Shown here piece by piece: positions 37,850 through 45,969 of a stretch of DNA of 64,000 nucleotides. Source of the stretch: Promethearchaeota archaeon. GTDB taxonomy: Archaea > Asgardarchaeota > Lokiarchaeia > Sigyniarchaeales > SOKP01. Each line of letters starts with the position of its first letter. The stretch's first letter is position 1. The position numbers were made by a program, and so were the translations under genes. The stretch covers positions 1 to 64,000 of the forward strand of contig JAFGGO010000108.1 in the NCBI GenBank assembly GCA_016930515.1, read 5' to 3'. The notes beneath the pieces were generated by a model. The model was given only the letters and a program-made list of their open reading frames with translations. It was not told where the DNA came from and searched no databases.

Positions 37850-40180
37850 TTAATTCCTTTCTTTTACTGGCATAAATATTTTAAAAAAATCCCGTTTTAC
37901 CTTGACATTACCTTGAAAGTTAACAATCATCCGATTACCTGAAAGGTTAACGGCGTGGAAACTACTGTAATTTCGCCCAAATCCTATAAAAGTAACAATA
38001 TCTCCATTATTTAGATTAGAGTCCAATTTAGAGGAATCTTTTATTCTTAAAAAGGTTCCAGATTTCAAATCTTCGAGCGAATTGATATTATGAATCGTTG
38101 CGAAAGAAAAAGAACCCGAATAATTTTCAAAAATGTAATCGTGAAGTTGCTTAAGTGGTTTTTTTTCGATTTTAATGGTTTCTCCCTTGATTCCCCTTTT
38201 TGCTATCAATAATGCCGCAATGGCGTGATCCACGAAACCTTTTGCTCTCACTTCGTTCACCAACTTGCCTTGTTGTAAATGAAACATTGCTTCTTTAGTC
38301 GTTTTAAATTCGTCTACTAAAAAGATATCGGGCGGTTCGAAGCGATTTTTTAGAGGTACATTTTCTTGTTCCATTCCTTCTAAATCGTTCAGGTTAGATT
38401 TTACGCAGGATAAATTATCGCAAGGTATACCAAAATATTCAATGAAAAAATCGATGATAAAATCGGAACCAGGACCGTGCCCCACGAAAATCTTGTTGAT
38501 CAATTCCTTTTTTTCGCTAAAAAACAACCCGAGTTCTTCTTCGATTTGCTGTTTTGCAACGCTTTGAGATCTAAGGTCCTTGATGTTGCTCTTTAAATTC
38601 ACATACCATAGTTCTGGCAATTCTCCGTGTTGGATGAGACAAAATCCAAAATGTCTCGTCCCAGGATCTACGGCTAATATCACTTCTTTTTGCTTAAATG
38701 TAAAGAGGTTGATGTCTGCCTTTCCTTTAGATATTTTCATCAATGAATTGAAAAAAGGTTCGAACTCTTGGTTTTTAATTTGTAGAAAAAAATCATGAGC
38801 TTGACTTTGGTAAAGCACTTCGATGTTGTATTTTTCGATTAAGGAAAAAAGATCGTGGTAATTTTCAACTTTCACAATGATATCTTGGCGAGGATCTATT
38901 TTAATTATTTTAACTTTCTCTACTGCTTTTGCTATGGCTTGGGCAATGTCGTCCTCGTTCTTTCCCGAAAGAATGTCCACATGAAGTCCGTCTAGATGGA
39001 ACGCTTCGTAAGCCGTCGAAGCACCTAGTAAATCGAAAAGTCTCTTTTCTTGGTTCCCCCCTCTTGAGATTGTTAATTTTTTTCTCGTTCGTGGGAAGAT
39101 TCTCACGCTTGCCGAGTTATATTTCCCCTTGCTAGGTGCATTTATCGTGATGACTCCTTTTAATTTTGAACTAATTACTTTAAATTCAATGAGATCTTCT
39201 AATTTCTCCTTTATGAAATCGAATTGGAGATCGCCAAGAACTAATATGTTAATATTTTTATTGTTTACAAAGAAATCAAAGGATGTAATTACTTTTTTCA
39301 GGTTTTCAAGGATCTCTGTCGCAATCTTAAATTTTTCGGGATCGTCAATATTAATTACGAATTCCTTGCGAGGATGTAAGTTGGACAAAAGCCCTGTTGT
39401 CTTGGGTGGTATGAATTTGCCATCATGATATTGGGTTCCTAGTTCAAACTCATTTTTTACATTTAGGCTAATCGTGACAATTTCGCCTTCAAGTGCCTGC
39501 TTTAAAGGAGAATTAGCCAGAGAAACCACTTGTCTTATCTTGATTTTATCGTTTAACCATTGTCCTGATTTTAAGGCTCCAGAAGTAAGACCAATGTTCA
39601 GCATCTCGCCAAGACCTTTCCGTTGTTTAAATCCTAATATTACAAAGGCCAATTCAGAATTTTCAAACTCTCTTTTTTTAAGATGAACGGAAATCCTTTC
39701 AATTAAATTCTCAATCCCCGTGATCTTTTTTGCAGATGTTTGGATTATCGGAATTCTTTCTTTCCCAAGCTTTTTTAACTCTGAATTGATTCTTTCAACA
39801 TTCGAATTAGGTAAATCCATTTTTGTTGCTGCGATGATGATAGGTAAATCTCTTTCCCGAGCTTTTTCGTAAAGCCAGTGTGTTCTAGCTTGGAAACCGT
39901 CCGTTCCAGAAATAACCAGTACTAAAAGGTCTGCAAATTCCAATCCCAAGGCAATACCTCCTTGAAAGTCGGCGTGACCCGGAGTGTCTAAAAAATTAAG
40001 CGTTAAGCTTTGTCGTTTCAAAACGAACTGAATGACCTTGAGGGACACCGTCGTACCGTGAGAAAGCTCGTAATCTAAATTATCGGGAAACTTTCCTACT
40101 ATTGCCTCAATCAAGCTTGATTTGCCGTGTTGAGCGTGTCCAGCAACTAGAACATTTAAAATTCTTTCCTTAGTAACCAT
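37850..40180 (-). CDS. translation-factor-type GTPase fused to a RuvC/YqgF-like domain
   Basis: A 776-residue single-frame fusion. The N-terminal GTPase has G1 GHAQHGKSS (14-22), HGTT (41-44), G3 DTPGHADF (65-72), G4 TKMD (119-122) and G5 TSAKK (148-152), as in EF-Tu/IF2/EF-G-type factors. It is followed by an EF-Tu domain II-like segment and an EF-G domain III-like stretch (LVLGDLQFDFIKEKLEDL). From residue about 498 a second domain begins with VILAVDPGTRHFGFCLI, then IFVGHGPGSDFIIDFFIEYF and VDHAIAALLIAKRG: an RNase H-like fold of the RuvC/YqgF kind. The glutamate expected on strand 4 is missing, so nuclease activity is doubtful. No known factor has this arrangement to my knowledge. Confidence 0.8.
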   Translation of the reverse strand: MVTKERILNVLVAGHAQHGKSSLIEAIVGKFPDNLDYELSHGTTVSLKVIQFVLKRQSLTLNFLDTPGHADFQGGIALGLEFADLLVLVISGTDGFQARTHWLYEKARERDLPIIIAATKMDLPNSNVERINSELKKLGKERIPIIQTSAKKITGIENLIERISVHLKKREFENSELAFVILGFKQRKGLGEMLNIGLTSGALKSGQWLNDKIKIRQVVSLANSPLKQALEGEIVTISLNVKNEFELGTQYHDGKFIPPKTTGLLSNLHPRKEFVINIDDPEKFKIATEILENLKKVITSFDFFVNNKNINILVLGDLQFDFIKEKLEDLIEFKVISSKLKGVITINAPSKGKYNSASVRIFPRTRKKLTISRGGNQEKRLFDLLGASTAYEAFHLDGLHVDILSGKNEDDIAQAIAKAVEKVKIIKIDPRQDIIVKVENYHDLFSLIEKYNIEVLYQSQAHDFFLQIKNQEFEPFFNSLMKISKGKADINLFTFKQKEVILAVDPGTRHFGFCLIQHGELPELWYVNLKSNIKDLRSQSVAKQQIEEELGLFFSEKKELINKIFVGHGPGSDFIIDFFIEYFGIPCDNLSCVKSNLNDLEGMEQENVPLKNRFEPPDIFLVDEFKTTKEAMFHLQQGKLVNEVRAKGFVDHAIAALLIAKRGIKGETIKIEKKPLKQLHDYIFENYSGSFSFATIHNINSLEDLKSGTFLRIKDSSKLDSNLNNGDIVTFIGFGRNYSSFHAVNLSGNRMIVNFQGNVKVKRDFFKIFMPVKERN

Positions 40181-40231: not shown

Positions 40232-40708
40232 TTAAATCTCTCTTCGGAACCCTTCAATAGCTTCAAAATAATCCAAGATAGATTCCCTCAACTCAACGGC
40301 GGGAACAATGTTCCTAACTCTTCTTACATATTCAACAGCTTGAGACCAGCTCCATTCTGGATGTTCCTTTAATAACCACGCAACACAAATAGCTCCGCTC
40401 CGAGAAATACCCATAGCACAATGGACCAAAAGTTTTCTATTATCTTCTTTAATCTTCTTGTTGATAAAAGAGAGTACCTCCGCTATTATTTCGTGAGATG
40501 GATATGTGTTATCTGGAAAACCTCTAAATAAATATTCGAACTTTCCTCTAGGGGGTTGATAATGCTTGTATTCCATCAGGTTAACTATAGCAGTAATTCC
40601 TTCTTCTTCCATCTTCTTAAAATTTAGCCTGGGCCAATACGCACCAATGTATAAATGTTCATTTATCTTGTATATCTCGTCAAGCTCGGGATTTTTATAT
40701 TCTGACAA
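40232..40708 (-). CDS. dual-specificity protein phosphatase
   Basis: A 158-residue cysteine phosphatase. The signature HCAMGISRSG holds the nucleophile C97 and phosphate-binding R103. The N-terminal EIYKINEHLYIGAYWPRLNF and the general-acid region RGFPDNTYPS are typical of small dual-specificity phosphatases. The substrate (phosphoprotein or phosphoinositide/RNA cap-type) is open. It is downstream of the surface-protein gene on the same strand but separated by over 100 bp, and upstream of the GTPase fusion by 51 bp. Confidence 0.9.
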   Translation of the reverse strand: MSEYKNPELDEIYKINEHLYIGAYWPRLNFKKMEEEGITAIVNLMEYKHYQPPRGKFEYLFRGFPDNTYPSHEIIAEVLSFINKKIKEDNRKLLVHCAMGISRSGAICVAWLLKEHPEWSWSQAVEYVRRVRNIVPAVELRESILDYFEAIEGFRREI

Positions 40709-42982: not shown

Positions 42983-44311
42983 TTATATTGAGTTCCTCCA
43001 CTTTTCAAAACCATTCCGATTATTGATGAGAACTTCTGGTTCTGGAATCACTTCTATCTCCATTGCTTTAGTTTCTTGGTTCAAGCCAATCTCTTCTAAA
43101 TTCACATTTAATTCGATCATTTCGCTCGGTAAGACATATCTCCTCTTTTTTTTAAAAAAGACCTTGTTATTGTCGTCTTTAAATTGTATTAAAACCCTTC
43201 GTTCGGGGTGTTTTACTCGAAACGAAAAAATTACATCCTTTGAAAGGTCTTTCGTGTTTATCAAGTCCGGCTTCACGTAATTCACGTTTTCTCCTGCGCT
43301 ACACTTTATTTTTCTCTTTTTTTCGGAACACTTTCCAAACTTGTTGTCGATGTAATCAACAGCATTTAATCCTGCTCGTTTTGCTTCAGCGACCACTAGA
43401 TCCACGAGGTCGTGTACCTGTAATACGTTACCGCACGCAAAAATACCCTCTGAGGTGGTTTGAAGGTTATTATCTATTGTCGGCCCTCCATTTGAAGATA
43501 TTTCCGCACCGCAATTTTGTGTGAGTTCGTTTTCTGGAATCAAACCAACTGACAAGAGCAAGGTATCACATTCAATAAAGCGGTCAGTTCCGATGATTCT
43601 ATCAAACTTGCGATCAACTTTTGAGATCGTCACCCCCTTGACTCGATTTCTTCCATGAATCTTGGTTACGGTATAACTCGTGATGAGTGGAATGTCGTAA
43701 TCCTCCAAGCACTGGACTTGATTTCTTAAGAGTCCGCTGACGTATGGTTGAATCTCGACAACTGCTTTTACTTGACACCCTTCCCATGTCAATCTCCTCG
43801 CCATGATCATTCCAATATCCCCGCTTCCTAAAATCACATAAGTCCTCCCTGGAAGGTAGCCTTCAATGTTGACGAATCTTTGCGCCTGACCTGCCGTATA
43901 AATTCCCGAGGGTCTAAATCCTGGCATGTTAATCGAACCTCGAGTTCTTTCGCGACATCCCATGCTTAGTATGATCGCCTTGGCATTTATCTCAATAAGT
44001 CCCTCGTCCTTATTTATAGCGTGAATGACCTTGTCTTCTGATAGCTTTATGACCATTGTTTCTAACTTGTAGGGAATTTCAAGTCGTTTAACCTCGTTGA
44101 TGAATCTTTGAACGAACTCAGGTCCAGTCAGTTCCTCTTTAAATTCGTGAAGTCCAAATCCGTTGTGAATACATTGAAGCGTAATTCCTCCCAATTCCTT
44201 GTCTCTTTCGAGTATGAGGACGTTCTTGTTCTCCTTTTTTACGACTATTGCAGCTGCTAACCCTGCAGAACCACCACCTATGATCGCTACATCTGTCTCG
44301 TATTTTTTCAC
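42983..44311 (-). CDS. FAD-dependent oxidoreductase (glycerol-3-phosphate dehydrogenase operon)
   Basis: A 442-residue pyridine-nucleotide-disulfide-type oxidoreductase. N-terminal FAD loop AIIGGGSAGLAAAIVVKKEN, the second nucleotide loop VILGSGDIGMIMARRLTWEG, and a C-terminal EGIFACGNVLQVHDLVD. It begins with GTG, 3 nt after the stop of the GlpA-like gene, with AGGGGG upstream. In bacteria such three-gene sets (GlpA-like, FAD oxidoreductase, DUF1667) serve an anaerobic glycerol-3-phosphate dehydrogenase. In archaea it might act on glycerol-1- or -3-phosphate. Confidence 0.85.
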   Translation of the reverse strand: MKKYETDVAIIGGGSAGLAAAIVVKKENKNVLILERDKELGGITLQCIHNGFGLHEFKEELTGPEFVQRFINEVKRLEIPYKLETMVIKLSEDKVIHAINKDEGLIEINAKAIILSMGCRERTRGSINMPGFRPSGIYTAGQAQRFVNIEGYLPGRTYVILGSGDIGMIMARRLTWEGCQVKAVVEIQPYVSGLLRNQVQCLEDYDIPLITSYTVTKIHGRNRVKGVTISKVDRKFDRIIGTDRFIECDTLLLSVGLIPENELTQNCGAEISSNGGPTIDNNLQTTSEGIFACGNVLQVHDLVDLVVAEAKRAGLNAVDYIDNKFGKCSEKKRKIKCSAGENVNYVKPDLINTKDLSKDVIFSFRVKHPERRVLIQFKDDNNKVFFKKKRRYVLPSEMIELNVNLEEIGLNQETKAMEIEVIPEPEVLINNRNGFEKWRNSI

Positions 44312-44314
44312 GAT

Positions 44315-45784
44315 TTATAAAGCCCCCTTTCGTTTGAGTTCAGTTAAAATCCTATCCTTTGTCCTGCATACAACTATGTTTGTATCATCTCCTCTTTTAG
44401 TGATTTCTTCATATGGGAGGTTTAATTCCTTGGATAAAAGTTCTATGATTCGTGGTCTGCAAAAACCGCCTTGACATCTTCCCATGCCTGGTCTGCAACG
44501 AAACTTTACGCCATCAACAGTTCTTGCTCCAACAGGAGCTCGAATTGCGTTTAAAATTTCCTTTTCTGGAACCGTTTCGCACCGACACACAATCCTACCC
44601 CATGAGGGGTCTTCTTTTATTTTTAAATCTATTTCATCATTTGAAAAATTCACGAAACGTTCGGGTTTTGGTCGATATGGATTATAATCTTCTTTTTTCT
44701 TCATGGTTAAGCCGAGTAGTTCAAGAAATTCTTGTACTTTCTCGGCAATAGAAAAACAGGAAGAAAGTCCGGGGGATAATATTCCAGCAACATTAATAAA
44801 TCCGTAAACATCCGTGTTATCAATAATAAAATCCATTGATTCTGGTACAGCTCTCAAACCAGCAAAATTTCTAATCGTGCTTTTCAACGGCAAGTTAGGA
44901 ACGAGTTTCATTCCTCCCTCCAATACTTCCTTTAATCCTGCAGTTGTTGTGGACAGATCGTCTATATCAACTATATTTTGGGCGTTTGGTCCTGCAAATG
45001 TGTTTCCGTGTATTGTTGGACATACCAAAATACCTTTCGATACTTTAGTCGGGGATGGAAATAGGATTTTATTTAGTCGAATGGAATTTCTATCAAATAA
45101 AATATATTCTCCCTTGCGCGGTATGATGTCAAAATAATCCAAACCAAGCATCTTGGATATCCTTGAAGAATAAAGTCCCGCAGCGTTGATTAGGTGACTT
45201 CCTTGAAACTCTTCCGTTCTGGTTTTAACGTGAAACACATAATCCTGGTGCTTGATCTTAATTACTTCTTGATTACGGAAAAATTTAACTCCATTTGTAG
45301 CGGCATTTTCTGCCAAGGCAAAGGTCATTTCGTAGGGACTTACGATACCAGCAGAAGGGGCGTGAAGGACAGCAACAACCTCGGGTGTTAAATTTGGTTC
45401 CATCTTTAGAATTTTTTCCTTATCGAAAATCACTTCCAAACCAGGAATACCGTCTTGTATGCCGTTTTTTCGATAAGTTTCCAATTCTTCTATTTGATAA
45501 TCTTCCAATGCAACCACGAAAGATCCTATCCTTCGAAGAGGAAAATTCAATTCCTCTTGTGCTTTAGTATACAATTGATTACCATGTATACAGAGATTCC
45601 GCTTGGTATATTTTCTATCTGCCGCGTAACCTGCGTGTACCACTCCTGAGTTAGCCTTCGTCGTTCCCGAAGCGATATCTGCTTCTTTTTCCAATAATGC
45701 AATGTTAATATCGTACTTCGAAAGAGTTCGAGCTATAGCACAACCTATTACCCCTCCACCTACGATGATCACGTCATAAATCAA
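44315..45784 (-). CDS. GlpA-like FAD-dependent glycerol-3-phosphate dehydrogenase
   Basis: A protein of about 489 residues with DAO-type FAD domain: VIIVGGGVIGCAIARTLSKY at the start and GIVSPYEMTFALAENAATNG in the substrate domain. The C-terminus carries a BFD-like [2Fe-2S] domain, VCRCETVPEKEI then MGRCQGGFCRP. Together this matches anaerobic GlpA. No ATG is available; the TTG at 45784 gives the usual N-terminus, and a TTG at 45832 would add 16 residues. It is first in the three-gene operon. Confidence 0.85.
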   Translation of the reverse strand: MIYDVIIVGGGVIGCAIARTLSKYDINIALLEKEADIASGTTKANSGVVHAGYAADRKYTKRNLCIHGNQLYTKAQEELNFPLRRIGSFVVALEDYQIEELETYRKNGIQDGIPGLEVIFDKEKILKMEPNLTPEVVAVLHAPSAGIVSPYEMTFALAENAATNGVKFFRNQEVIKIKHQDYVFHVKTRTEEFQGSHLINAAGLYSSRISKMLGLDYFDIIPRKGEYILFDRNSIRLNKILFPSPTKVSKGILVCPTIHGNTFAGPNAQNIVDIDDLSTTTAGLKEVLEGGMKLVPNLPLKSTIRNFAGLRAVPESMDFIIDNTDVYGFINVAGILSPGLSSCFSIAEKVQEFLELLGLTMKKKEDYNPYRPKPERFVNFSNDEIDLKIKEDPSWGRIVCRCETVPEKEILNAIRAPVGARTVDGVKFRCRPGMGRCQGGFCRPRIIELLSKELNLPYEEITKRGDDTNIVVCRTKDRILTELKRKGAL

Positions 45785-45969
45785 TTGAACGATTACCCAA
45801 TAGTCGAGTGTTTTATTTATCTTATGATACAATAAGTAGTAAATAAATTATTAGTTTTTTCTTCGTTTTTTTCTAAATGGTTTAGAATAATCAAAATCTA
45901 GAAAATCTTGCTATATCCTAACGAGTAATTATGGACTTATTTTTAACATGAATTGGGTGTATTCAAATA

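Follow-up and report, generated by a model that had tools for sequence, protein, structure and literature searches.

A translational GTPase joined to a YqgF/RuvX-type RNase H-like domain in Asgard and Methanopyrus-type archaea

In the window, i.e. the whole analysed stretch of 64,000 nucleotides, a single gene (37850..40180, minus strand) was found to join a translational GTPase (trGTPase) with intact GTPase motifs to an RNase H-like domain of the YqgF/RuvX family with an intact carboxylate triad. The fusion is conserved in Asgard archaea and in a further archaeal phylum and has been kept under purifying selection. By sequence comparison, both halves are assigned to known families, and the protein is most likely a ribosome-dependent, GTP-switched RNase, perhaps acting in pre-16S rRNA maturation or quality control; we infer that it would bind the ribosome, cleave RNA and be gated by GTP, with pre-16S rRNA as a speculative substrate by analogy.

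Reading frame, occurrence and genomic context

The gene is a single ATG-started frame of 776 aa with zero internal stops and has full-length relatives. From the N- to the C-terminus it encodes a G domain of the active trGTPase type, domain II, an EF-G-type domain III, a reduced region IV, an EF-G-type domain V, the YqgF/RuvX RNase H-like domain and a tail of 85 residues. The initial annotation, made on the letters alone, had proposed an uninterrupted frame uniting a translational GTPase with a RuvC/YqgF-like domain, and this was borne out by the Pfam models GTP_EFTU (E = 6.4e-29 in the window protein) and RuvX (15/15 relatives).

The gene was detected in the genome of the window and in 14 others, i.e. 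in 15 of approximately 65 genomes of one Lokiarchaeal family, distributed over seven genera and including Lokiarchaeota BC3; these copies are full-length except those cut by contig ends. One copy, truncated by a contig end, was obtained from a second Asgard class (genome G059). The contig in question (G059:C49, start of L049/L079) opens with a frame reading MCIRDS, which resembles leftover sequencing adapter, so that the apparent start of this relative is regarded as artificial. The search for the same fusion in other Asgard genomes, which the annotation had proposed, was therefore positive, and it was positive outside Asgard as well: a separate archaeal phylum, which we take to be Methanopyrus, carries the fusion with the same architecture in 5/5 genomes (Methanopyrus-type genomes). 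The fusion family thus reaches beyond Asgard archaea. Among 394 archaeal genomes from 252 genera around this phylum, no further convincing members were found, and a viral collection returned nothing but unrelated GTPases. Separate genes for the two parts in all relatives had been named as the outcome that would speak against a fusion; a separate copy was found nowhere in the sampled genomes, with no convincing stand-alone nuclease domain in 224 Asgard and the 394 archaeal genomes, no stand-alone RuvX in the genome of the window, and the fusion never split.

Because the genome of the window is a 190-contig bin whose contamination is estimated at 5.3%, we considered whether two unrelated genes had been joined by contamination or chimeric assembly. 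The same fusion is, however, present in 14 more Lokiarchaeal genomes at a conserved locus, in the second Asgard class and in the five genomes of the other phylum, two of which carry it on one contig each, of 1.4 and 1.7 Mb. Since the full-length fusion recurs across several genera and another phylum, this explanation is refuted for practical purposes.

The tree of the fusion groups by genus, with one genus excepted, and inheritance was therefore mostly vertical, accompanied by losses. Omega was mostly 0.05–0.2 in all four parts of the fusion, the closest pair having too few changes to judge, and the fusion is accordingly under purifying selection. As the distribution is patchy and most relatives are devoid of the fusion, the protein is not a core rRNA processor. 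A simple replacement of RNase E/G-like enzymes was also considered and its prediction was not borne out, since these enzymes and the fusion do not show a complementary distribution: they occur together in one genome, and most genomes are without either. In one Lokiarchaeal bin, an RNase E/G match of E = 2.8e-109 (L220, G001:C355) lies far above those of its relatives and may be bacterial contamination.

The Lokiarchaeal locus has the order glycerol-3-phosphate dehydrogenase-like oxidoreductase, pyridine nucleotide oxidoreductase, DUF1667-like protein, dual-specificity phosphatase and fusion, followed by a zinc-ribbon protein, a radical SAM protein and EMC3-like and GtrA-like membrane proteins; names of the first two genes and of the phosphatase were checked against Pfam, and the others were assigned by eye. 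In the window, positions 42983-45832 (minus strand) encode the FAD-dependent glycerol-3-phosphate dehydrogenase-like protein with a BFD-type iron-sulphur domain and the pyridine nucleotide oxidoreductase, then the DUF1667-like protein, a block that adjoins the phosphatase in nearly all inspected Lokiarchaeal genomes. The phosphatase-like gene itself (40232-40708, minus strand, TTG start) has the same orientation as the fusion and lies upstream of it at a distance of 51 bases. Its adjacency to the fusion is common in Lokiarchaea, and it also persists without the fusion; as the phosphatase occurs in 43/65 genomes and the fusion in 15, some of which have no phosphatase, it was rejected as a functional partner. 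Fifteen fusion-less Lokiarchaeal genomes were inspected, and most retain both flanks with the fusion cleanly absent, two sites being cut by a contig end; the intact flanks indicate that gain or loss was clean. Small genes at these sites were rejected as remnants, as they encode unrelated small proteins. In Methanopyrus-type genomes, the fusion is followed by a dCTP deaminase/dUTPase-like gene (L198:9215-9682), which in one of them overlaps the stop codon by 4 bases. No ribosomal or rRNA-processing gene was among the conserved neighbours at the Lokiarchaeal and Methanopyrus-type loci, which counts against the reading as a ribosomal RNase.

The GTPase half and its EF-G-type extension

The G domain (residues 1-170; 39671..40180, minus strand) was assigned by Pfam GTP_EFTU, matching residues 5-167 of the window protein, and by motifs conserved in both phyla, namely GHAQHGKS (14-21), GTT (42-44), DTPGH (65-69), TKMD (119-122) and TSAK (148-151). 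In a 21-sequence alignment, G19, K20, S21, T44, D65, G68, H69, K120 and D122 are kept in at least 90% of the fusion family. The features that define the trGTPase superfamily are all present in the fusion protein, i.e. motifs G1–G5 with the switch-I GxT and DxxGH, and a beta-barrel domain II behind the G domain. The histidine of DxxGH (here DTPGH) is used by ribosome-activated GTPases such as EF-Tu and EF-G. The G domain is without a G′ insertion. Domain II (residues 172-262; 39395..39667, minus strand) was delimited by the IF-2, LepA and SelB models, which run through it to residues 207-240 of the window protein, and by Pfam EF-G_D2 in relatives (up to 1.5e-12 in Methanopyrus-type genomes).

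In a tree of G and II, the fusion family formed one clade whose stem measures 2.37; its placement towards EF2 has weak support (83/67). This long branch stands beside, not inside, EF2, which counts against a ribosomal GTP-gated RNase. Judged by the equivalog models, the fusion protein is not EF-G or aEF2 proper, the cut-offs having been missed by a relative with 89.2 bits vs 659.4 for EF-G and 55.7 vs 738.45 for aEF-2. An identity with aSelBL was rejected, as M. kandleri has aSelB and not aSelBL (PMC3037878). At least two further EF-2-like proteins, with frames of approximately 730 and 753 aa, are encoded in the genome of the window and fall into two separate EF2 branches of the same tree.

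The part behind domain II (residues 262-495) had been described as domain III-like. Domain III is indeed recognisable there, but the same stretch appears to hold EF-G domain V as well, with a reduced region IV between the two. As single sequence, residues 262-500 of the window protein gave no family match. The family profile was collinear with EF-G 421-680 over 213 columns at P values of 0.008-0.017, which are weak in absolute terms, and the collinear III–V score exceeded those of all 150 column shuffles; with more distant relatives added, the III–V match to EF-G reached P = 2.3e-4. Taken alone, domain III (residues 266-345; 39146..39385, minus strand) matched EF-G 414-484 (P = 1.1e-4) and domain V (residues 431-495; 38696..38890, minus strand) matched EF-G 615-680 (P = 1.8e-4), i.e. 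both of these domains expected of the EF2 family were recovered. For domain V, Pfam EFG_C additionally gave 0.0012 in one relative, below the curated cut-off. The region in place of EF-G domain IV (residues 346-430; 38891..39145, minus strand) is collinear in the III–V profile alignment, shortened to approximately 85 residues, and on its own gave zero individual profile matches to EF-G. Applied without the G domain, the III–V profile retrieved domain III of archaeal EF-2 from a whole genome (E = 1.3e-4), and its two best PDB matches, each weak, were domain III of TetO and of EF-2.

AlphaFold2 modelling of the full protein with two sequences gave a mean pLDDT of 32. For residues 255-500 the mean was 44, with blocks of domain III reaching 77, and use of this model was confined to its secondary structure and its ranks in the fold search. 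Two beta-alpha-beta-beta-alpha-beta units were predicted, corresponding to domains III and V. In a Foldseek search of the model against 350,542 PDB chains, the 36 best matches were entries or complexes of EF-G, EF-2 or EF4 (best E = 1.3e-6); their TM-scores are low (0.2-0.3), and the search is thus evidence for how the individual parts fold, but not for how they are arranged. With several methods in agreement, residues 262-495 are read as predicted EF-G domains III and V flanking a reduced region IV.

The YqgF/RuvX domain and the tail

The RNase H-like domain (residues 498-663; 38192..38689, minus strand) was identified by Pfam RuvX and by profile comparison. Pfam RuvX matched the isolated domain in all 15 relatives, the best match (6.8e-8, 33.4 bits) coming from the distant Asgard member, whose isolated domain alone passed the curated cut-off of 29.2 bits; the window's own nuclease domain gave 0.0033, below this cut-off. 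The profile was also compared with an independently built RuvX family, for which sequences were taken from public plasmids, E. coli and the PDB; P was 1.4e-6 and fell to 1.3e-7 once more distant relatives were included, and the catalytic positions came into register. E. coli RuvC resembled the domain over the first 43-72 columns only, around the first strand, and profile comparison with Tex/Spt6, represented by E. coli Tex alone, showed no similarity (P = 0.31 and 0.16).

Three putative catalytic carboxylates were assigned by alignment to YqgF and not from a structure: D505 in strand 1 (VDPGTRH; 38666..38668, minus strand), E624 in strand 5 (VDEFKTTKEA; 38309..38311, minus strand), which aligns with the Glu of the YqgF motif DER and is kept wherever covered, and D651 in the C-terminal helix (FVDHAIAALLIA; 38228..38230, minus strand), kept in all sequences covering the position. 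All three are present in 20/20 sequences covering the domain, across two phyla and despite approximately 31% identity, and the E624 motif reads VDE(F/Y/R)xTTKEA. The arrangement is that of YqgF/RuvX, with three carboxylates and a strand-5 Glu, and not that of RuvC, whose Glu at the end of strand 4 faces no Glu in the alignment. In the YqgF family, the acidic residue is borne on strand 5 (at its end) rather than on strand 4 (PMC9601230, PMC3985635). Between residues ~586-615 (window ~38336-38425, minus strand), Lokiarchaeal copies carry an insertion before strand 5 of variable length and sequence, which is missing in the other Asgard class and in Methanopyrus-type genomes.

These residues bear directly on whether the domain cuts or only binds. 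The initial annotation had noted that the first Asp is kept, which the alignment upholds (D505 is invariant in 21/21 sequences), and that the strand-4 Glu is lacking. The latter holds at the RuvC position, but at the YqgF position in strand 5 the residue is present as E624; the YqgF arrangement, which normally places its Glu there, explains the apparent loss. The conclusion drawn from it, loss of the catalytic Glu and hence binding without cutting, was not sustained, as E624 is conserved and the YqgF triad complete. Binding of RNA or protein without cleavage, as proposed for Tex, can point to the related Tex being without the full carboxylate set (PMC3985635) and to YqgF structures, in which just three carboxylates were judged too few to chelate two metals without substrate (PMC9601230). 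Set against this are the retention of all three YqgF carboxylates across two phyla and the zero profile similarity to Tex. In D. radiodurans YqgF, moreover, mutations of D22, E106 and D122 impair or block RNase activity, the Glu and Asp equivalent to those found here thus being needed (PMC9601230). Binding alone is therefore judged improbable, and conservation of D505, E624 and D651 makes it more likely that the domain cuts RNA than that it merely binds it.

The C-terminal tail domain (residues 690-776; 37853..38113, minus strand) is conserved in both phyla in the 21-sequence alignment; a Pfam search with the tail of a distant relative returned no match.

Proposed function and comparison with known systems

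A covalent fusion of a GTPase and an RNase is strong evidence of two activities acting together. We lean slightly towards a ribosome-type GTPase that holds its own nuclease, with GTP hydrolysis licensing or timing an RNA cut on the ribosome. The N-terminal half (G-II-III-reduced IV-V) would dock, in the manner of EF-G or LepA, at the factor site of the ribosome, where GTP hydrolysis would be stimulated. The C-terminal YqgF/RuvX domain would thereby be positioned against ribosomal or ribosome-bound RNA and might cut, in a metal-dependent manner, the RNA within reach, so that GTP hydrolysis would license or time the cleavage. Counted in favour of a ribosomal RNase were the DxxGH histidine, EF-G domains III and V, membership of the RuvX family, the D-E-D triad and the retention of the fusion in three archaeal lineages. 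The action of bacterial YqgF on pre-16S rRNA and the eIF5B-Nob1 checkpoint in maturation of the 40S subunit suggest, as analogies, that an rRNA precursor would be the likeliest substrate. E. coli YqgF is reported to act on pre-16S rRNA only within the 70S ribosome (as cited in PMC9601230), and in eukaryotes 3′ maturation of 18S rRNA is coupled to the GTPase eIF5B (PMC10104536). A ribosome-associated or RNA-handling role, as suggested at the outset, stays the best guess.

The EF-G body lies on the A-site side of the ribosome, and a second reading makes use of this: as a translation quality-control or rescue factor, the protein would sense stalled or colliding ribosomes with its GTPase half, its EF-G-type body sitting on the A-site side, and cut mRNA or tRNA at or close to the A site with its YqgF half. 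The patchy distribution fits such a dispensable factor, and the condition-specific LepA and TypA are likewise without a G′ insertion (PMC4342817); ribosome rescue or toxin genes were, however, not seen in the inspected neighbourhoods, and the YqgF precedent points to rRNA. We consider this reading unlikely, though the least so of the alternatives.

A DNA-acting fusion, i.e. a RuvX-type Holliday junction or R-loop nuclease with a GTPase module serving a non-ribosomal purpose, is hard to reconcile with a GTPase half of ribosomal-factor type through domains II, III and V, for which we know of no DNA role. The dCTP deaminase/dUTPase-like gene next to the fusion in Methanopyrus-type genomes would suit it, but the downstream gene is not conserved in Lokiarchaea. 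Other activities, including Holliday junction cleavage, are reported for some YqgF proteins, which counts against the RNase reading (PMC9601230); overall, a DNA-acting role is rated very unlikely.

The preferred ribosomal reading can be stated more fully: the protein may be a self-contained GTP-gated ribosomal ribonuclease, the first trGTPase known with its own nuclease, from an old archaeal family (Methanopyrus-type and Asgard), in which hydrolysis at the factor site would be coupled to cleavage of rRNA or ribosome-bound RNA. This fuller version is put forward tentatively, doubt slightly outweighing belief. The fusion would connect the ribosomal factor site with YqgF, a protein whose function in bacterial cells is under debate, and the heat-stable Methanopyrus-type version would allow direct in vitro testing. 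Not all nucleases that process rRNA in archaea have been established so far (PMC11602121).

That no described factor is known to have such an architecture, as initially stated, agrees with the reviews of both superfamilies: among 57 surveyed trGTPase subfamilies, of which seven are archaeal, a nuclease is mentioned for none (PMC4342817), and a survey of the RNase H-like superfamily names no GTPase partner (PMC3985635). No description of a GTPase-YqgF fusion was found in the open-licence literature, and an earlier annotation is possible. The archaeal trGTPases aEF2, aEF1A, aIF2g, aIF5B, aSelB, aSelBL and aGTPBP belong to the same superfamily, none being described with a nuclease (PMC4342817), and the fusion would be a further archaeal subfamily.

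The fusion shares with the EF2 family (EF-G/aEF2, LepA, TypA/BipA, Tet) a G domain with DxxGH and predicted domains II, III and V in order, and with LepA and TypA the missing G′ insertion; unlike this family, it has a shortened region IV, additional nuclease and tail domains, its own deep branch in the G+II tree and scores far under every NCBIfam equivalog cut-off. With YqgF/RuvX (PF03652, COG0816, putative pre-16S rRNA nuclease) it has in common the RNase H-like profile, the D-E-D set with the strand-5 Glu and the motif DE-x-x-TT-x-x-A (VDEFKTTKEA in the fusion), whereas YqgF is a stand-alone bacterial protein of approximately 140 aa and the domain described here trails a translational GTPase in archaea, with a variable Lokiarchaeal insertion before strand 5. 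The RNase H-like domains of RuvC and Tex/Spt6 belong to the same clade of the superfamily as that of the fusion (PMC3985635), which differs from RuvC in being without the strand-4 Glu and from Tex in showing zero profile similarity. The closest analogy in working is eIF5B with Nob1 in final 40S maturation, where a translational GTPase is coupled to an rRNA endonuclease; there the GTPase is of IF2 type and the nuclease has a PIN domain, each being a protein of its own, and their homology to the fusion is confined to domains G and II.
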